DNA from: Myxococcus hansupus
GTDB lineage: Bacteria > Myxococcota > Myxococcia > Myxococcales > Myxococcaceae
DNA: 64,000 nucleotides
Reading direction: 5' to 3'
Assembly: GCF_000280925.3 (NCBI RefSeq)
Contig: NZ_CP012109.1
Location: 4,360,501-4,424,500, forward strand
The notes under the pieces were generated by a model that searched no databases, had not been told where the DNA came from, and saw only the letters and a list, made by a program, of their open reading frames with translations. Below are positions 17,500-44,635 of the stretch, piece after piece (positions within the stretch are counted from its first letter, which is position 1; every line of letters begins with the position of its first letter). The position numbers were made by a program, and so were the translations under genes.

Positions 17500-18588
17500 T
17501 CACTCCGGCTGGATTTCACGAACGGACAGCCACTTGAAGTCCACGTCCTCGGTGCTGTCCCAGCGGAACGTGGCGATGGGACCGCCCCAGGTGATGGGCA
17601 TGGCGCCCACGGAGCCGCCGCAGTGCTCGGCGTCCCCGCCCCAGTCACCCGCGTCCACGAAGTCGTAGACCTTCTGCCAGGAGACCTTGTCCGCGTTGTC
17701 GTTGAGGTACAGCTCCAGGTGCACGGCTTCCTTGCCGTTGACCTGCGTGTTGCGCATCACGGCCTTGAAGCCCACCCACCGGCCCGTCAGCGGCGTGGTG
17801 GCCTCCTTGTACGGCGCCGCGTCGTAGGAGACGTGCCACGTCTCCTTCTGGTAGCGGACCCGGCCGTCGAAGTGCAGCGCGGCCTTGTAGCTGCTGCCCT
17901 CGCAGCCCTCGTACTTGTCGTTGTGCTTGCCGCCACGCGCGTACAGGTCGAAGTTGTCCGACATGTCGGACGCCGCGTTGAGCTTCACGAAGCCCGTCAT
18001 CTCGATGTTCTTCCAGTCGTTCGGCGACTGCATGTAGCCGCGGCTGGCGAGCACTTCACGGTCGTACGTGGCGATCTCGTTCGGCTTGTAGCCCGTGGAC
18101 GTGAAGACGGCCATGCGGACCTTGTTGCTCTTGAGGTTCCAGGAGCCGTCCGAGTTGCGGGTGATGTCGTTCTGGGGGTCGAACCGCTTGTCCGACGTCG
18201 CGTTCTCCGCGAGGAACCACTCCTCACCGCCCTGAAGGGTCGGGTGGAGCATCGTCACGCCGAACCGGTCCTCACCGGACTGGGAAGGCTCCTCGGACTC
18301 GTCGGTCGGCTGCTCCGGATTCGTCGAGGGCTCCTCCGGGGGCGTGGTGGCGACCGGCTCGTCCGGCGAGTCTTCATCAGAGGTCCCGGGCGCCGGCGTG
18401 CCAGGGGTCTGCCCTCCAGGCGTCTGCTCGGACGGAGAGGGAGCAGGCCGCTGAGGGGTCTGACCAGGGGGCTCGGTCCGCCCTGGCTCATTGGGGTCCT
18501 CGTTGCCAACGTTACTTCCGCAGCCAGTGATGGCAGCCAGAGCGAAGAGCGCGCCGCACGTCGAGGACAGAAAACGGTTCCGAGTCAA
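17500..18588 (-). CDS. Lipoprotein with Pro-rich linker and concanavalin-like domain, TTG start
   Basis: A protein of 362 residues. The TTG at 18588 is chosen because it gives a complete lipoprotein signal (MTRNRFLSS, hydrophobic core, A-I-T-G-C) and has AAGGA about nine bases upstream. After the lipid Cys comes a 90-residue linker of Pro, Thr, Glu and Gly, then a 240-residue domain with many aromatic residues and beta-strand pattern (NIEMTGFVKLNAASD, DNFDLYARGGKHNDKYEGCE, GRWVGFKAVMRN, VHLELYLND). This looks like a jelly-roll sugar-binding or polysaccharide-lyase-like sandwich. No catalytic residues can be assigned. The surface-exposed linker and sandwich suggest polysaccharide binding, which fits the nearby export operon. 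Confidence 0.75.
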   Translation of the reverse strand: MTRNRFLSSTCGALFALAAITGCGSNVGNEDPNEPGRTEPPGQTPQRPAPSPSEQTPGGQTPGTPAPGTSDEDSPDEPVATTPPEEPSTNPEQPTDESEEPSQSGEDRFGVTMLHPTLQGGEEWFLAENATSDKRFDPQNDITRNSDGSWNLKSNKVRMAVFTSTGYKPNEIATYDREVLASRGYMQSPNDWKNIEMTGFVKLNAASDMSDNFDLYARGGKHNDKYEGCEGSSYKAALHFDGRVRYQKETWHVSYDAAPYKEATTPLTGRWVGFKAVMRNTQVNGKEAVHLELYLNDNADKVSWQKVYDFVDAGDWGGDAEHCGGSVGAMPITWGGPIATFRWDSTEDVDFKWLSVREIQPE

Positions 18589-18940
18589 AATAGCGTCCTT
18601 ACTGCTTGAGGCATGAGCGTGACGAAGCCCCCGGCGCCCATCGCCGGGAGTGGGGTCGTCGCGTCGGGCCCGTCGGGAGGGGGGGGGACAATCCTCAGGG
18701 ACGGTGACGCCTGGCTGGTCTCATAGCCCCGTGTTTGATTTTTCCAACCGGGACGATTCCAAACCCATCGCCTTCCAGACCCCATCCCGAACCATCGGGA
18801 GGTTTTTGACTGTCCGTATGCCCTCCAGGCCTCGGGACGGGCGCGCCGCAATTTGCCAGGGTCCTTCGGTTTTCCCGATGGACTCCTCCTGGAATTCCTA
18901 TTTGTAGAAGCCTCGGGTGACTCCTATCTGACGCTCCTAT
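18589..18940. promoter_or_regulatory. 352-bp divergent intergenic region
   Basis: It separates the divergent lectin-like lipoprotein and terC genes, so it must carry both promoters. It contains a G-run near 18671-18686 and an AT-richer tract around 18730-18790. No yybP-ykoY-type manganese riboswitch, the element often found before terC/alx genes, was recognised. No gene-like frame was seen. Confidence 0.35.
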
Positions 18941-35281: not shown

Positions 35282-36373
35282 TCAAGTCACAGCGGCCTCT
35301 GGCCTCGTGAGCTGGCGGCGCAGCTCCTCCGTGGCAATCACGGGCGTACCGTCCTTCCCCATCAGCGACTGCCCGTCCTCGGCGTAGAGCGCGGGGCGGC
35401 GGTACAGCATCCGCAACGCGTGCAGGTGCGGGTACACCTGGGAGGCCTCCGGGTTGAGTTCCCGCAGGTGCTTGCGCAGCAGCGGCGCGAACTTCGGACT
35501 CATCGCCGGGAAGATGTGGTGCTCCTGGTGATGACTGAAGTTGTAGTGCATCCAGTCCATCGCCGGGTGGGTCGCCACGCTGGCCGTGTTCACGAAGGGG
35601 TTGTCGGACTCCTCGTGCGCCGCCAGCAACCAGTGGTTCGTGGCGATGTAGATCATCAACGTGAAGTTGCCGATGAGCAGCGGCAGGATGAGCGCGTAGA
35701 GCGCCCCCAGTGGCCCCATCCACCACCCCACCGCGACCCACCCCAGCAGCACGAGCACCGTGAGGATGCGCTCGCGCGTCCGATGCATGTGGACGTGCTT
35801 GAACTGGGGCAACGCGCTGTGGCGCCACAAGAACGCCTGGCCCTGTGCCGTGAAGAAGAAGAAGAAACTCACGAAGCTCAGCAGTGAGCCCGAGCCCGGC
35901 GACATCGCGTGGAACACCTTGGCGAACCACTGGGTCCGCCACTCGCTCTGGCGCGGCAGGATGTCGGGGTCACGGACCAGGACGTTCGCCGCGCTGTGGT
36001 GCGCCTGGACGTGCCAAGCCCGCCAAGTCCCAGGGGTCACCAGGAACGGGCCGAAGCCCACCCAGCCCAGGAGGCTTTCGAGCGCCCTGCTGCGAAACAC
36101 CGCGTGGTGCAGCGCCTCGTGCGCGGCCAGCCCCACGGCGGTCGCCAGTTGTCCCAGGACGAACGAGCCGAGCAGACACGCCCACCACGGCAGCCGCCCG
36201 CTGGCCACGGCCCACATCAACACGCCCATCAACGGCACGAGCCCCAGCGCGACGACGCCACGCAGCGGCTGCGGTTGGAAGGACTCGGGAGGCATGACCC
36301 GCCGGAGCTCGGCTCGGAGCTTGCGCGGATCATCGGCGGGAATCGGTCCCGCCTGAGAAATGGAAGCACTCAT
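35282..36373 (-). CDS. Membrane fatty acid desaturase
   Basis: A protein of 363 residues with about four to six membrane helices. The three His boxes of membrane di-iron desaturases are present: HEALHH (85-90), HVQAHH (121-126) and HHQEHH near residue 278. These introduce a double bond in an acyl chain using O2 and an electron donor. It starts 24 bases after the stop of the megasynthase gene on the same strand, so it is probably the third gene of that operon and may desaturate or hydroxylate the synthase product. Membrane di-iron hydroxylases share the same motifs. Regiospecificity cannot be read from sequence. It is convergent with hutH. Confidence 0.88.
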   Translation of the reverse strand: MSASISQAGPIPADDPRKLRAELRRVMPPESFQPQPLRGVVALGLVPLMGVLMWAVASGRLPWWACLLGSFVLGQLATAVGLAAHEALHHAVFRSRALESLLGWVGFGPFLVTPGTWRAWHVQAHHSAANVLVRDPDILPRQSEWRTQWFAKVFHAMSPGSGSLLSFVSFFFFFTAQGQAFLWRHSALPQFKHVHMHRTRERILTVLVLLGWVAVGWWMGPLGALYALILPLLIGNFTLMIYIATNHWLLAAHEESDNPFVNTASVATHPAMDWMHYNFSHHQEHHIFPAMSPKFAPLLRKHLRELNPEASQVYPHLHALRMLYRRPALYAEDGQSLMGKDGTPVIATEELRRQLTRPEAAVT

Positions 36374-36397
36374 GCGTTCACCCGATCGTGGAAGGTT

Positions 36398-39300
36398 TCA
36401 AGCCATGGGCCGCGCGAGGCCGCCTTCGATCAGCATCCGCAGCCGCCCCGCTTCATCCAGCGCCGCGACGCTTCCGCACTCGAGCAGGTCTCCCTCCACT
36501 CGCGGAGGAAGCGCCTTCAACGAGAGCCGAAGCGGCGCGCGCCCCTCGCCCTCCACCAGGCCCCGGTCGAACGTGGCCCGCTGGACCTGGATGGGAGCGA
36601 ACACCGTGCTCGACTCCCCATCCACGTGCATCGCGCTCAGCCGCAGCGCCGCGTCCATCACGAGCGCGGGCACCGTGCTCCCCGCCTGCTCGGGCGCCGT
36701 TGGCAGCCCCAGCCGGGCGAAGCGCGCGGCGGGTTCGATTTGAATCTCCTCCAGGCAATCGAACATCTTCCGCAGCTCGATGGGGCCCCCCGTGGCGCAG
36801 TGCGGGTCATGGACACGCAAGGCCCGTCCCGTCGGCGTCGCGGCATCCAACGCGGGCGTCCCCCGAGGCGGCTCCGCCGTCAGCGTGAACCGCGCCTCCG
36901 CATAGACGAGGTCCCGCTCCAACACGACGCCAGACCCATGGACGATGTCCCCCATGAGCCGGACCTGCACGCGGTACCGGTTCGGGACGTCCTCGATTGG
37001 CGTGCATTCCGCGCGCAGATGCTGCTGCCCCCCCGGCTTCACCCGGATGAATCGTGAGAACCGAACGTCCTCGATGGTAACGGTCCGCAGCTCCGGCCGC
37101 CCGGTGCCCACCGCGGATTGCAGCATCAAGTCCAAGGCCCAGGCCCCCGGGAGCGTGGGCGTCCCCCGGACGAGGTGGTCCTCCAGGCAGGGCACACTCG
37201 CGGCATCGACGACCAGCGGGCGATGCACGGGCGCGGCGGAGGCGTCCGCGGACAGGACCTCCAGCCCGTAGAACCCACGCTCGCTGTCCGTGAGCTGGAC
37301 GTTGATGGCCTCGCGGGGCCGTCCGTCCACGAGCTGAAGGAAGAGCGCTTCACCCTCCTCCGCCCGGATGCCACGCAACTGCCGGCTGGCCCCCAGCACG
37401 CGGTACTCCGAGCCGCGCGTCATCCCGATGCCATCCCAGGCGAGCCAGCCCACGCTGCACCACCGCACCTCACTGCTGGCGTCGCTCACCCAGGCACAGA
37501 GCCGGTCCAGGGCCTCGTTCGCCGCGCCGTAGTCCGCCTGTCCGTCGTTCCCGATGTAGCTGAACGCCGAGGTGAGGACATGGAACGCCACGGGGCGGGC
37601 GAGCCGTGACACGCAAGCATCGTGCAGGTTCCGGAGACCGAGCAGCTTGGTCCCCAGGTTCGTCCGAAGCTCCCCGAGCTGCCGCCGGTTCAACTTCTTC
37701 GACGTCTGCGTCCCCGCCCCGTGGACCACCAGGTCGAGCCGCCCATACACATCCGCCACCTCTTGTACGACCCGGACGACGTCCTCGGCCCGCGTCACGT
37801 CCGCGGCGCGATAGCGCATCTCTCCCGGGAGCCGGGCGAGCCCCTCCAACGTGGACTTCAACTCGCGCGCGGCCAGGAACCGCTCGAAGCGCTTGCGCAA
37901 CTCCGGCATGCGCGTGCTCGGGTTGCGGGCCAGCTCGGCTGTGTAGAACTCGCGCTCCACCTGGGGCAAGTCCTCCGCGCGAGCATGGAGCACGTGCGGC
38001 GGCGCTTCGTCCGGATCACTCCGGCCCATGAGCACCACCTTGCAGCCGTACCGCTTGAGCAAGGCTCCCGCGAGGACCGCCGTCACGCCACGCCCTCCGC
38101 CCGTCAGCAACACCACCGAGTTTGAGTCGAGCGGCGCCGCCGGTTCCGTGGTGACGGCTGTCGCTCGCAACACGCGGACGCAACGCCGGGAGCCGTCGAA
38201 GCAGACCTCGATGGAGGGCGTTCCCTGTGGCTCGGCGCTCAGCTCCCCTTCAGCCAGGTCCAACGCGGCCTGAAGCGGCATGGCCGAGGTGGACATCGCA
38301 TGGACATGCCGTGCAGGCACCTCACGGCCAATGGACTTGAGGATTCCCGCGAACAACCCGGACATCGGATGCAGGCACCGGCGTGCTCCCACGGCGCCGA
38401 TGCACAGGCTCGCCAGCTCGACCCCACCGCGCGACAGCCGTTCGTAGACGCGGCGTGCGGCCAGGAAGAGCAACTCCAACGCGCCATGCTCCATCGCCGT
38501 GTCGGCCACCACTTCGGCCTGTCCCGCCCGCGTGTTCACGCGGCTGACCGCGAGGATGACCTCGGGCTCGAACGCCAGCGCGGACAAGCCTGCCTCCGCC
38601 GACGCTTCCGTCGTGAGGTCGATGCTCCGGATGCGCCCCTCGTCCCCGGAGTTCCCCGCACAAACAATGCGGTAGTCCGGCCCACACAGGGTGTCGACGT
38701 GTTCCGCCAGCTCACGTGCGAGCAGCACATCCTGCGCGATGAACACCACCCGGCGCCCTCGGAGATACCCCGGCCGGCGCGGCCCCGTCGGCCTCTCGAC
38801 AAGCACCGGCGCGTGGTAGCGGATGGTCCCCGCATGGTCGAACCCACTGGGTGCCTCGGACGCTGAAGCCACGGCAGCAGTCGGCACGGCTTCCGCGGGC
38901 CGCACAGCGACCTTCCGTGGTGCGTCGGAAGGTGGCACCAGCGTCACCTCGAACCGAATGCCGGTCGCGGCCTCCGGGTGGAACCTCAGCGTCGTGGGCT
39001 GGCCTTCAGCGGCGGCTTGCACTGCCCGGAAGAGCGCCAGGCTCTCGCCCGCGGAATGCGCGGGGAGCTCAACATGGGCCCCTGCCACGACACCCTGCCG
39101 GAGATGGCACAGGGGCTTCAAACCCAGGCTTCGGGCCTTCGCGACCGTCGTCACCGCGAACAGCGCCGCGCCTTCCTCGGGATGTAGCGCGCCCCGAGCC
39201 TCACCAGGCCGACTGATATGGGTGCTGCCCACGAAGACCAGGTCGAAGCCGCTCTCCAACACCCCACGGGCCGCCCTCAGCGCGGCGGACGAGGACGCAG

Positions 39301-42300
39301 CGCCAGCATCCACCACGAAGTTCGGGCCCTTGACGTCGAGCACCCCCGCGACACGGCCGGGCGTGACGTTCGGCATCATCCCCTGGAGCGTGTACGGCCC
39401 CGTGGGACGCAGCGTCTCCGTCACCGTCGAATGCAACCGGTCCGCGAGCGGAAGTACCGCGGCGGACGCGGGCTCGCGCGCGGCCTGCTCGTGCAAGCGC
39501 CTCCGAAGGGAGAACGCCAGGACACGCTGGACGGCCTCGACGCCTCGACGCGTCTTCCCTTCGAGCCCGAGCACGATGGCCGTCTTCGAGCGAAGCGCGT
39601 CGAACGCACCCAGCTTCCGTGCCAATGCGCTCGCTACCACGAGCCCCAGGCGCTGGGTCGCATCCATGTCCTCGGAGATGTCGGGCAACAAGCGGACCGA
39701 GGGAGGCAGACTCAACGCCGCGAGGTCGAAACGGGGGCCAACGTCGGTAGGAGCCCCCGCCACGGCAAGTCCTTCACGATCCGGGAACAGGCCCTCCGCG
39801 GCCACCACCACCAGCTCGGCATCCTCCGTGTTTCCAGCCACCCGCCGAGGCGAGGCCGTGGGCCCTCGGTACTCCTCCAACACCAGGTGTGCGTTGGTGC
39901 CACCAAAGCCAAAACCGTTGGTGGCGGCACGTCGCGGGAGGGCACCGTTCTCCGGCCAGGGTTGCTCGTGGGTGTTCACCTCGAAGCCGGGTCCCATGCC
40001 GCGGAGCGCGTCACCCGGCTGCGCGAAGTTCGCCTGCACCGGGAAGAGTCGGTGCTCCAGCGCCTTGCACAGCTTGATGACCGAGGCCGCGCCAGCCGCC
40101 CAGCCCACGTGGCCGATGAGCGCCTTCACGCTGGCCAACTGGAGGCCACTTCGCTTGCCGCCAAAGACGTGGGCAATCGACTTGAGCTCGGTGGCGTCCC
40201 CCGCGGGCGTGGCCGTGCCATGGGCCTCGATGTACTGGATGCTCGCGGGGCGAGCTCCGCGCCGGAGTAACACGCCTCCATCGCGGCCACCTGCCCCTCC
40301 ACCCGAGGCACGTTCGCCGAGCTGCTCCGGCCATCGCTGGACAGCCCCGCGCCGCGAATGACGGCATGCACCCGGTGCCCCGCCGCCACCGCATCCTTCA
40401 GTCGCATCAAGCCGACGATGCCCGCGCCCTCGCCAAAGATGACGCCATCCGCGCTGGCGTCGAAGGGCCTGCTCCCCGTGGCGGAGAGACCGTTGAACTG
40501 GGAGAAGAGACAACTGTTCCCAGGTCCCGGAGAGAAGACGCCCCCCGCCAACACGAGGTCCGCGTCGCCGCGTTCAAGCGCCTTCATGCCCAACGCCATC
40601 GCGTAGAGCGATGACGCACAGGCCGCGTCGAGCAGCGTCGTGGCGACACCCGCGCCCACCACGTCGGACACCACCGCCTGGAGCGTCGGATACGGTGCCA
40701 AATCGCTGGAGATGGCCTCCACCCCCAGCGCGGCACGTGCGGCCATCGAAAGCGCGGCCACGTCGTGGACCCGCTCGCCACTCGCGCACAGGAGCGCCTC
40801 GCCCGCCTCGACACTCAACGCCGCGTCGTACTCAGCCGAGCCCTCCGCCGTCGATCCAAGCAGGCACTGGATGCGCCCCGGCGAACGCGACGCCACGGCC
40901 TTCAAGCCCCGCATGGCCTGTTCGAGCGCGATGGCCAGCAACTTCTGCTCGCGGACATACTGCTGGAAGCGCGCCGGGTCGAATCCCGGAGGAGGCACCA
41001 GGTCCGCCTCCCGCACCTGCCCCGTGAGCAACGTATACGCACGGTCGGGCGTTCCCCGAGGCCCCATGAAGTCCGCCACCCACTCCGGACGCGCCACGCT
41101 CGGGTCGACGATGCCACTGACACCCTGGCGGATGTTCTGCCAGTACGCCTCTGGATCCTCCGCGCCCCCCGGCAGGATGCACCCCAACGACACCACCGCC
41201 ACCCCGTCATCCTCCATGGGCACGGGGAGGGCCTCGCGGGACGCGGGCGTCGAAACGGGCGCGGGCGGCCCCTCCGGAAGCATCTTGCTGATGACACGAA
41301 CCGCGTCGGATGCCACCGAGGGAAGGATCTTCTGGACGATGCGCGCCAGGACGCCGGTGGTTCCACAGTCCACGAAGCGCGTACATCCGGCCCGGGACAG
41401 GGTCTCCACCGTGCCCAGGAAGTCGAACGGACGCACCAGGTGCGAAGCCAGTGCCTCCGCCAGCTCGGGCTGCCCGCCTTGGTACTGGCGCTGCTCGATG
41501 GGTGAATAGACGCGGCCCTGGGGTGCCCGCATGGGCACCTGCGTCAGCAACGCACGGAAGTCCTGGGACGCCGTGGCCAGGCCCGGGTGGTGGAACGGGT
41601 ACCGGCTGGTCACGAAGGAGAAGCCCTGCCCTCGGGACTCCAGCAATGCACGGAGGCGCCCGAGTTCACCGCGAGCCCCCGCGACCACCGTCTGCCGGGC
41701 GTGGTTCCGCCCCGCGACGACCAGCCCCGAAGCGCCACATTCCGCGATGGCGCGGACAGCTTCCGACTCACCCAGTGCCAGCGCCGCCAGTGTTCCGAAA
41801 TCGTCCGGGACCTTCTGGAGCGCCCGGATGCGGTGACAGACCACCTGCGCCCCCGCCGCCAGGTCGAGCGCCCCGGCCGACGTCATCGCGGCAATCTCTC
41901 CGAAGCTGTGCCCCACGAACACGTCCGGGCGCAGCCCCTGATGCTGCAACCAGCGGGCGCCCCATACTCCCGACAGGTAGATGCCGAGCTGGTCGAGCTG
42001 CGGCACCGCCTCGAGCGCCTTCCGGACCTCCACCGCATCCCGGGCGAAGAGCAATGGCGCCGCGTCCACGCCCGCCACGAGGCAGGCGGTCGAGACACCG
42101 TCCAGCTCCGCCTCGAGGCCGGCATGCAGCGCCTTCAACCGGAGGAAGAGCTCCGGCTCGAACGAGCCCTGCCCCGCGAAGAGAAACGCGGTCGCCTCCG
42201 CTGGGAGCGTCAGCGACGCCGCGGACTCCAACGGACGAGGAGACTCGGATGGCGCCACCGACACCACCCGGGACGTCCCCAGCGACGCGGGGTCCGCGAG

Positions 42301-42822
42301 CAGCGACTTCGCCAGCGTCTGGAGCGACTCGGGGAACAGCTCCTTGATGGCGGCGCCGCCCTGATGTGCGCGCTCCCGGAAGCTCCGTGGCGCGGGCTGC
42401 TCCAAGATGTCCGACAGTGACTCGAAGCACCGTTGGAAGGACCGCGGCCAGGGACACAAGGTCCCCTGTGCCCGGTCCGCGCAGAGCACCGTCTGGTAGC
42501 CGCAGGCCACCGGCGTGCCGTCGCTCTTGAACGTCCGGAAGCAGAAGCGGAGGGAGACCTCTCCCCGCTCCTCCAACGACGTCAGCACCACGAGCCGGTC
42601 CCCCAGGGATGCGGGCGCCAGGTTGCGCGAATAGCCCTCGTAGGTGAGCAACAGCACCTGATCGAAGTCGCGGCGGAACTCCGGTACGTCGAAGACCGCT
42701 GGACTGAAGAGCAGGTGCTCCCGGCCCGCGCACTGGAACTTGAAGTTGGTGAGGAAGTGATGGCTCCCGTAGGCCATCGTGTCATCGAAATGAATGTCGT
42801 ACGGGACGGCGAAGAACCCCAT
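36398..42822 (-). CDS. PUFA-synthase-like megasynthase TE-AT-KS-CLF-KR-DH (one-base frameshift in this sequence)
   Basis: Read through one missing base this encodes about 2141 residues. Domains: hot-dog thioesterase (1-160, FDDTMAYGSHHF, like enediyne/PUFA thioesterases); acyltransferase (212-510, FAGQGS, GHSFGE with Ser306); ketosynthase (535-960, DAACASS with Cys735, IEAHGT, then a second His in KALIGH and GFGFGGTNAH); a KS-like chain-length-factor domain whose Cys is replaced (DAGAASSS, near 1170); ketoreductase (LLTGGGRG near 1575, SYIGNDGQADYGAANEA); and a double hot-dog dehydratase (HLVRGTPTLPGAW near 1885). No ACP is within the protein; two ACPs are on the upstream gene. The frame breaks at 40247-40250. 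GGAGG precedes the ATG at 42822. The order TE-AT-KS-CLF-KR-DH differs from Pfa systems I know; the product is probably a specialised acyl chain. Confidence 0.85.
40247..40250 (-). other. Frameshift site in the megasynthase gene (G/C homopolymer)
   Basis: Up to GAELAPR the upstream frame follows a normal ketosynthase. After the run CCCC (minus strand) it turns to non-homologous Ser/Arg/Pro sequence and stops at 40126. The adjacent frame resumes exactly at ASIQYIEAHGTATPAGD. Adding one C to the run would join them as APASIQYIEAHGT, the expected sequence. The span 36398-42822 is 6425 bases, one short of a multiple of three. Sequencing error, a true mutation or slippage are all possible. Confidence 0.8.
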
Positions 42823-42845
42823 GGTCGTTGCCTCCAGTGCGAAGT

Positions 42846-44378
42846 TCAGGAATCGAGCGCGAGCAGCGCCCGCACGTCATGGTCGGAAGAGTGGCTCCAC
42901 CGCGGCTCCGTGGGCCGTCGAGCCGGCACCTCGGAGGTTCCAGGCAGCAGCCCGTCCACCGTTCCAGAGAGGCCCCCATCCACCACCCAGATGGCGCCAT
43001 TCACCCGGCGCGTCTTGGGCCCCAGGAGGAGCTCGGTGACGTCGGCGACATCCTCCGCCGTGCAGATCTCCCCGCCCGGCGTGGCGGCCTCCCAACGCGC
43101 GACGCGCGCCGCCGCGTCCGGGAACATGCCGAGCAGCTCCCCATGCACCGGCCCCGCGGACACGCAGTTCGTGCGGATGCCCTCCGGCGCCAGCTCCGCG
43201 GCGAGATATCGCGTCAACGACTCCACGCCCGCCTTCACCACGCCCTGGCACCCCAGGTCGTGCATGTAGCGCTGGGACATGGACGTGGACATGGTCACGA
43301 TGCTGCCGCCGCCTCGCGCGGCCATCAGCGGCCTCGCACGCATCGCGCACTCGTAGGTCCCGGTGATGCAGGTGCGGAAGGCCTTGTCCCAATCACGCGG
43401 CGCGATGCGATCGAACGGGCCGATGAGGCCGTTGGAGGCATTGCACACCAGGAAGTCCAAGCCGCCACATTGCGCCACGATGGTGGCGAACATCCGGTCC
43501 AGGTGCTCCTCCTGCGCGACCGAGCCCCACACGTGGAGGGCCTTGCCTCCCGCGGCATTCAGCTCCGCCACCGTGCGCTCACCCTCATCGCGCGAGTGGA
43601 AGGAGTTCACCACCACTGTGGCGCCCGCACCCGCCAATCGCGCCGCGATGACCTTGCCAATCCCCTTCCCCGCCCCCGTGACGAACGCAACCTTGCCTTC
43701 GAATGGAAGCTCCACCGGAGGGGGTGAACGGCGTGGCGTCTGGACCCCACGCACGGGCTGCGCGGGCGTGGGTGGAGGTGCCAGACGTGAGCGCGCCATC
43801 TCACAGATGGCGGCGATGGTGCGCAGGCGCTGGGAAGGCGGTGGCGCGTCCGTCAGCCCCAACTCCCGCACGAGCACGGCCAGGATCTCCGCCTGCTTGA
43901 CGGAGTCGATGCCCAGCTCGTCCTCCAGGTCCGCGTCCGGCGTCAGCAGCGCTTCCGGATACCGCGTGACGCGCGCGAAGACGTCACGCACCCGAGCTTC
44001 CAGCTCGCCATTCACCGGCGCCGACGGCGCGCGCGGAGCCACGGGTGCTGGCGGTGCGGAAACCCCTGGCGCCGCGACGGGAGCTGGCGACGGCTGCGCC
44101 CGCGCGACCCACTGCCCCACGACCTCCGCGACGGCCCCCAACGTGCGCGCCTGTGCGCCGCGAGGCAGCCGGTCCGACGGAATGTCGAACTCGCGTCCCA
44201 CCACGGCGGCAATCTCGGCGAGCTTGACCGAGTCGATGCCCAGCTCATCCTCGAGCTGCGCATCCGCCGTCAGGATGTCGAAGGGATAACGCGTGACCTC
44301 GGCGGCACAGCGACGGATGCGCTCCAGGATGTCCGCGGCGGCCAGAGTGCTCTGATGTGATGCATGGTGTGTAGTCAT
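42846..44378 (-). CDS. ACP-ACP-enoyl reductase (FabL-like SDR) fusion protein
   Basis: A protein of 510 residues. Two acyl-carrier domains come first, each with the phosphopantetheine Ser in DELGIDSVK (about residues 41-49 and 148-156), joined by Pro/Ala linkers. Residues 235-480 form a short-chain dehydrogenase with VTGAGKGIGKVIAARLAGAG. Its closest look-alike is FabL-type enoyl-ACP reductase (MSQRYMHDLGCQGVVKAGVES, SLTRYLAAELAPEGIRTN). Where FabL has its catalytic Tyr six residues before the Lys, this protein has Leu; the second Tyr and the Lys are present. The megasynthase begins 23 bases downstream, so the ACPs act in trans on it. The ATG at 44378 follows GAGGG. Confidence 0.85.
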   Translation of the reverse strand: MTTHHASHQSTLAAADILERIRRCAAEVTRYPFDILTADAQLEDELGIDSVKLAEIAAVVGREFDIPSDRLPRGAQARTLGAVAEVVGQWVARAQPSPAPVAAPGVSAPPAPVAPRAPSAPVNGELEARVRDVFARVTRYPEALLTPDADLEDELGIDSVKQAEILAVLVRELGLTDAPPPSQRLRTIAAICEMARSRLAPPPTPAQPVRGVQTPRRSPPPVELPFEGKVAFVTGAGKGIGKVIAARLAGAGATVVVNSFHSRDEGERTVAELNAAGGKALHVWGSVAQEEHLDRMFATIVAQCGGLDFLVCNASNGLIGPFDRIAPRDWDKAFRTCITGTYECAMRARPLMAARGGGSIVTMSTSMSQRYMHDLGCQGVVKAGVESLTRYLAAELAPEGIRTNCVSAGPVHGELLGMFPDAAARVARWEAATPGGEICTAEDVADVTELLLGPKTRRVNGAIWVVDGGLSGTVDGLLPGTSEVPARRPTEPRWSHSSDHDVRALLALDS

Positions 44379-44635
44379 TGCCGACCCTCGTGCTCTGGTT
44401 CGCGGCAATGAATGCATCAGCGGTCTGACACGACTTGCGGAGGCGGGTGACGCGTCACACACCGTTCACAAAGCGGCACGCAAACCGCATGCGTGCGAAA
44501 TATTTCCTGGGCACTTTACATCAGCACAGCGTCGGTGCCGGCGCGTTCACGGGCGCCGGCGGCCTGCTCGCTGGGCGGACGGCGCTCGCGCCTCCAACCT
44601 GGCGCCGTGGCACGGATGCCACGGCCGAGCTTCAC
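44379..44635 (-). promoter_or_regulatory. Upstream region of the secondary-lipid operon, with a hairpin
   Basis: This 257-bp gap lies between the branching-enzyme-like gene and the ACP-ACP-ER gene on the same strand. An AT-richer tract (GGAAATATTTCGCACG on the minus strand, about 44494-44510) is the likeliest promoter area for the three-gene operon. A perfect 8-bp hairpin (GCCGGCGC / GCGCCGGC, 44537-44560) downstream of the upstream gene may terminate it, although no U-run follows. No regulator site was recognised. Confidence 0.35.

Follow-up and report, generated by a model that had tools for sequence, protein, structure and literature searches.

The window analysed here, a stretch of 64,000 nucleotides from Myxococcus hansupus (contig NZ_CP012109.1, positions 4,360,501 to 4,424,500), carries a three-gene operon on its minus strand, at 44378–35282, with intergenic gaps of 23 and 24 bases. 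The genes encode a protein with two acyl carrier protein (ACP) domains and a short-chain dehydrogenase/reductase (SDR), a megasynthase, and a membrane desaturase. We read the operon as an iterative type I fatty-acid or polyketide synthase of its own lineage, which builds, releases and desaturates an acyl chain, and assign this reading a probability of about 0.62. In broader terms it is a conserved, uncharacterised and probably iterative synthase operon, best read as a variant of the secondary-lipid synthases that is possibly stress-regulated.

The expected domain order of the megasynthase is thioesterase (TE), acyltransferase (AT), ketosynthase (KS), chain-length factor (CLF), ketoreductase (KR) and dehydratase (DH), with Pfam matches to the AT, KS, KR and PKS_DH_N families. 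These domains and their order, the shared strand, both gaps and the outer coordinates agree with an initial annotation made from the sequence alone. That annotation had also assumed a single frame and overlooked a frameshift near 40240, which breaks the megasynthase inside the KS, between its Cys and His motifs (the frames at 42822–40126 and 40513–36398 overlap). Its further statement that the gene set is complete for making and releasing an acyl chain fails in the window because the megasynthase is frameshifted. The features are collected in Table 1.

Table 1. Features of the synthase operon and its upstream region, in window coordinates
Feature	Position	Strand	Details
Gene 1: ACP-ACP-SDR reductase, 510 aa	42846..44378	-	Carrier Ser residues 50 and 159; SDR about 226-472; Pfam PP-binding (2 stretches) and adh_short_C2; FabL 3OIC top PDB match
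Gene 2, first frame	40126..42822	-	TE residues about 1-135, AT about 211-514, Cys-bearing N-terminal part of KS 540 to about 860; last about 38 codons out of frame
Gene 2, second frame	36398..40513	-	Genuine from about 40252 on; holds KS His motifs, CLF, unassigned linker, KR residues 800-1027, DH about 1085-1371
Junction of the two frames of gene 2 (frameshift in assembly)	40225..40255	-	Relatives open across junction
Gene 3: membrane fatty-acid desaturase, 363 aa	35282..36373	-	H85, H89, H121, H125, H126, H282, H285, H286; Pfam E 2.2e-27
Promoter element TGTCAGACC-N6-GCA	44413..44430	-	TGTCAG.CC retained in 22/22 loci
Near-palindrome GGAAATATTTC	44497..44507	-	Window, L011, L012, L013 and L023 only, among 15 aligned upstream regions

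Scanning genome contigs gave 22 loci. In 21 of these the match runs from query residue 1 to residue 845 or beyond; the other, L032, is a weak match to the KS only. By their record titles, the 21 relatives come from Myxococcus, Corallococcus, Pyxidicoccus, Hyalangium, Citreicoccus and Myxococcaceae bins, with one record titled Comamonas, and the domain order, which the initial annotation had put forward for a search of myxobacterial genomes, recurs in all of them. Alignments were built from the window together with 15 of the 21 relatives for the TE (A1), 13 for gene 1 (A2), nine for the desaturase (A3) and 14 for the upstream DNA (A5), with Azospirillum added to A1–A3.

The residues expected of a working synthase are strongly conserved. 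The AT motif GHSFGE, the KS motifs DAACAS and EAHGTAT and the KR motif QADYGAANEA are each present in 21 of 21 relatives, and the DH motif DHLVRGTPTLPG is found in 20, with a gap in one row that is presumably the truncated L031. A pattern search found the AT motif FHH, which is typical of malonyl-specific ATs, in 20 of the 21. The domain beside the KS, previously called a CLF, is indeed a second KS-like domain in which the Cys is absent from its position in every relative (21/21). ACPs were detected only on the separate 510-aa protein and not in the KS protein, again as first described, and both carrier serines are invariant over 15 rows. The AT may load malonyl units, as GHSFGE and FHH suggest, onto the two ACPs of the separate protein, and the KS, paired in cis with the Cys-less CLF, would lengthen the chain, each unit then being processed by the KR and DH. 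Enoyl reduction may be carried out at some steps by the SDR on the ACP protein, release of the acid would fall to the N-terminal hot-dog TE, and the di-iron desaturase would introduce a double bond into the product or its lipid.

Several observations weigh against this reading, and the first concerns the reductase. The SDR has FabL as its best PDB match (3OIC, E 2.4e-39), in keeping with its initial description as a FabL-like enoyl reductase, a likeness that does not extend to one key position: the stretch RYMHDLGCQGVVK in the window stands against RYLENYTTVGVSK in FabL, the second Tyr of which we take to be catalytic. All 22 Myxococcaceae rows have Leu at this position, whereas Azospirillum (L033) has Phe and Paraburkholderia (L034) has Tyr. 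Because the reductase is without the FabL Tyr, saturation or full reduction of the chain is uncertain. One alternative is that the SDR provides no working enoyl reductase and the product is a polyene or a partly reduced polyketide, in which the double bonds left by the DH remain, as in enediyne-type or polyunsaturated fatty acid (PUFA)-type chemistry, and the desaturase-family protein modifies the chain, possibly as a hydroxylase. The Leu or Phe at the Tyr position beside a retained Lys, and the enediyne thioesterases among the weak matches of the TE profile, are consistent with such a product. We nevertheless consider it rather unlikely, given that the glycine-rich nucleotide motif and the active-site Lys are both conserved and that SDR enoyl reductases can tolerate loss of the active-site Tyr, as InhA variants do.

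The TE supplies further points of this kind. Its profile also matches the ordinary acyl-CoA thioesterase YbgC (E 0.008), Met16 stands at the position of the 4HBT-type Asp (it is aligned with the Asp of 5V10), and the AlphaFold2 model of the domain was unusable, with a predicted local distance difference test (pLDDT) score of 45.6. Each of the 17 sequences in alignment A1 matched the 4HBT_2 family (best E 1.5e-6), the window scoring 22.8 bits, below the curated cut-off of 25.5. Matches of the TE profile to hot-dog thioesterases are weak throughout, at E 8e-4 for 5V10, 9e-4 for 5VPJ, 0.0099 for CalE7, 0.08 for DynE7 and 1 for SgcE10. In 5VPJ, which we take to be an enediyne TE, the position of the Met is occupied by Asn and not Asp, and its Q, R and E align with Q30, R34 and E35 of the operon TE. 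The annotation of an enediyne-type hot-dog TE leading the megasynthase can be kept as far as an N-terminal, weakly matched hot-dog domain; the enediyne kinship is weak, ordinary hot-dog TEs scoring equally.

The two remaining points are the broken gene itself and the literature. The window copy is frameshifted, so its strain may not make the product unless the frameshift is a sequencing error. Searches of the open-licence literature (for locus tags MXAN_3459–3464 and three MXAN_RS tags, myxobacterial secondary lipids, a desaturase together with a polyketide synthase (PKS) and development, and PKS with mitomycin) returned no product or mutant. Homospermidine lipids were dropped as a candidate product; the part of PMC9548883 that deals with them ties these lipids to the hsl cluster, whose location was unchecked here.

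The frame is uninterrupted at the window's break point in all 21 relatives (L011–L031), of which 20 have a complete megasynthase of 2114–2400 aa from the aligned start without a stop, L031 being cut by the contig end. At the TE match, the open frame measures at least 1,890 aa in 46 genomes and 916 aa in the window's genome. As the relatives and the other TE-bearing genomes are open across it, the break is special to the window's genome or to its assembly. In that same one-contig assembly other synthase frames stay open over as much as 10,993 aa, which speaks against generally poor sequence, and a single frameshift in such a genome suggests that the operon has recently been lost in this strain, the lesion being real and no functional megasynthase being made. 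We put this at somewhat less than even odds. Against it, only one lesion was found, all remaining TE matches lie in the long open frames just described, and the ratios of non-synonymous to synonymous substitution (dN/dS) relative to L011 are low in every segment: 0.15 for gene 1, 0.20 for the TE, 0.20 from AT to KS, 0.19 from KS to CLF, 0.21 for linker-KR-DH and 0.18 for the desaturase, comparable with the 0.18 of a neighbouring gene. Low dN/dS and a lone lesion fit a sequencing error equally well as a very recent loss.

The third gene bears out the earlier call of a three-His-box desaturase: besides its match to the Pfam FA_desaturase family, none of the eight His residues of the three boxes varies across the 12 rows compared, one of which is Azospirillum. 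Among NCBIfam models DesB comes nearest (E 2.5e-49, below the model cut-off). As DesB is a fatty-acid desaturase, the enzyme could act on bulk membrane lipids and merely be co-transcribed with the synthase. We judge this improbable, since the desaturase gene starts 24 bases after the synthase and lies beside it in 18 of the 18 relatives whose locus spans the full desaturase length, and since the Azospirillum synthase is adjoined by two desaturases.

Gene 1 lies upstream of the megasynthase in 21 of 21 relatives and the desaturase downstream in 19 (in L022 cut by the locus end), the loci of L019 and L031 ending earlier. The TE profile matches 47 of 195 Myxococcota genomes, all within the window's family: 26 of the 27 genomes of the window's genus, all 16 seen of a second genus (g6), two each of g5 and g8, and one of g3. 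An orphan synthase in 26 of 27 genomes of one genus and all 16 seen of another makes a basic need likelier than an occasional antibiotic. No flanking partner gene is common to more than nine of the 22 loci (the comparison took in frames of 110 aa or more up to 8.5 kb away, some loci being short), and the sharing of flanking genes mostly tracks relatedness. The record titled Comamonas sp. KCTC 72670 (L011, BNCN01000016.1) appears to be Myxococcus; over 148 residues its KS shows 100% identity to the KS of a genome of the same genus (G125, L054), and the hutH and branching-enzyme genes that flank its locus agree with those of the window.

The family was placed among known systems with a KS tree of 56 rows, which included nine of the 21 relatives and no Hgl or enediyne KSs, rows of 380 residues or fewer being meant to be excluded; the window was left out because its KS is split. 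Searching Myxococcota with the PfaA profile supplied 30 Pfa-like KS rows, of which 18 score above the PfaA cut-off. The nine family members group with Azospirillum (support 95/89), and together these join Paraburkholderia and a Streptomyces plasmid (100/99). The 30 Pfa-like KSs lie on one side of a branch (90/89) and nine modular KSs stand apart (100/99). Long branches were flagged for the Azospirillum and Streptomyces rows, and the tree does not resolve the order in which the family, Pfa-like and modular groups diverge at depth. An approximately unbiased (AU) test went against the family and the Pfa-like rows as a single clade (p 3.9e-7), which says little because the Azospirillum, Paraburkholderia and Streptomyces relatives were left outside the tested clade. 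A position inside a characterised Pfa clade, named in the initial annotation as the outcome adverse to its proposal, was not found, the family lying outside the 30 Pfa-like KSs. The proposal of a secondary-lipid or iterative synthase distinct from Pfa gains support from this tree, from the architecture recurring in 21 relatives and from an SDR in place of a PfaD-type enzyme.

Comparison of domain content leads in the same direction. Both the operon and the Pfa or secondary-lipid synthases (types A–T in the portions of Shulse and Allen 2011 drawn on here, PMC3098273) have KS, AT, CLF, KR and DH domains and more than one ACP, in a set of the iterative type. The operon differs from Pfa in carrying its ACPs on another protein, an SDR instead of a PfaD-type enoyl reductase and an N-terminal TE, as well as in its KS, which lies outside the Pfa-like rows. 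The second frame of gene 2 reaches 218 bits in total against PfaA (TIGR02813), best over KR to DH, where the cut-off is 1010. A broad definition of a secondary-lipid synthase, given in a section of the same paper (PMC3098273), calls for at least one KS, ACP and KR domain, and the operon has all three; the string 'myxococc' is absent from the main text of that article, its figures lying outside the search.

A colinear set of domains is found on plasmid p4 of Azospirillum argentinense (L033), where the parts are largely separate genes: a TE of 193 aa, an AT-KS-CLF protein of 1045 aa, a 269-aa protein without a Pfam match, a KR-DH protein of 577 aa, an ACP x3-SDR protein of 597 aa and two desaturases. 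The cluster thus differs from the operon in its separate genes, its three ACPs and its second desaturase, and genes for a phosphopantetheinyl transferase (PPTase), a DUF4345 protein and resistance-nodulation-division (RND) efflux lie close by. We know of no study of it, and a search of 72,556 plasmid records with the Azospirillum TE matched only its own record. This unfused cluster shows that the megasynthase and a separate-gene set are related by fusion or fission. A related synthase, SDR-KS-CLF-KR, is encoded on a plasmid of Paraburkholderia ginsengisoli (L034), together with an AT, a P450, a PPTase, a DUF4345 protein and lipoprotein-export-like genes; in both this and the Azospirillum cluster DUF4345 lies near the PPTase.

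In the enediyne PKSs a hot-dog TE (CalE7, DynE7, SgcE10) works with a KS-AT-KR-DH synthase, and the operon resembles them in this pairing. Unlike them, it has a fused TE, a CLF and an ACP-borne SDR; its TE match to them is weak (E 0.0099 to 1), and the comparison included no enediyne KS.

A relative of the operon is present in Myxococcus xanthus (L013). From neighbour order and gene numbering, we take MXAN_3462 of M. xanthus DK1622 to be probably the orthologous megasynthase. The passage of PMC6617876 that mentions MXAN_3462 describes it as a gene of an unidentified cluster that is up under chloramphenicol.

The DNA upstream of the operon has diverged between genera, yet all 22 loci keep TGTCAG.CC, placed some 50–100 bases ahead of the point where the alignment of gene 1 begins, and these operon promoters make up 22 of its 31 copies in 473,046 bp of loci. 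In all 26 operon-bearing genomes of the genus, TGTCAGACC-N6-GCA lies 1565–1719 bases before the TE, that is, upstream of gene 1. The near-palindrome GGAAATATTTC is a possible candidate operator. Across the 27 genomes of the genus TGTCRGACC-N6-GTA occurs at 361 sites, against 20 for a reversed control, and in the window's own genome TGTCAGACC occurs at 39 sites versus 18; of the other 38 own-genome sites 11 have GTA, and three TGTCGGACC sites were also examined. Among the genes preceded by motif sites are recX, two Uma2 genes, a PriA-domain gene (with GCA) and a gene of the putative DNA-repair family TIGR03915, which scores below the cut-off of that family. Another is the gene of an XRE regulator, which lies one long frame from a gene for a 319-aa ParA-like protein. 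That XRE gene fits ddiA, which adjoins pomXYZ and whose DNA-damage induction is treated as unexplained in the relevant part of PMC12288472. The TGTCRGACC-N6-GTA motif may bear on LexA-independent DNA-damage induction in Myxococcus.

Tentatively, then, the operon could belong to a LexA-independent DNA-damage regulon, its product serving stress survival or defence, an idea to which we give clearly less than even odds. Besides the conserved position of the element before gene 1, it draws on the enrichment of the GTA motif and its place before recX, the ddiA-like gene and the TIGR03915-family gene. According to the sections of PMC9705874 on these genes, M. xanthus has pafBC, and ultraviolet light raises 126 and lowers 91 secondary-metabolite genes, 20 of these 217 being affected by LexA loss. 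On the other side, the operon carries GCA in most loci and the motif's GTA in 0 of 22; the GCA variant occurs at 146 sites against 102 for the control in the 27 genomes, and the operon itself accounts for 26 of the 146, which leaves membership of the operon in the motif class a hypothesis. In addition, dnaE2 has no motif directly upstream and recN only a degenerate form (imuA and imuB were not covered), many genes behind the motif are without known function, and the pafBC homologues are themselves under LexA according to a passage of PMC12288472. Through the promoter one can ask directly whether myxobacteria couple the synthesis of lipids or polyketides to stress. We think it unlikely that the whole picture holds, namely that an additional type of secondary-lipid synthase belongs to the core of the window's genus and of a second genus (Myxococcus and probably Corallococcus), that its expression is linked to a DNA-damage promoter class independent of LexA, and that it makes an as yet unseen unsaturated lipid for stress or spore survival.

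Individual motif sites may be noted for reference. TGTCRGACC-N6-GTA sites such as L131 (G000:C1:7870555) and L138 (G000:C1:203253) precede the ddiA-like XRE gene and recX, and TGTCAGACC also stands before an ACP gene and a type I PKS gene (L100, G000:C1:589019; L114, G000:C1:3345686), the second half being TTA at both.

The 350 bases upstream of gene 1 hold no MrpC motif in any of the 22 loci, and six FruA motifs, in five of the 22, are near the background of 0.27 per 350 bases, so these motifs give no link of the operon to the fmgE system. In L013 (M. xanthus AM003) a gene with a twin-arginine-like signal, at 17599–18813, separates the desaturase from hutH; going by its place and the gene numbering, it is possibly fmgE (MXAN_3464). 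The window is without this gene, hutH following the desaturase directly, and L012 and L023 carry other frames there.

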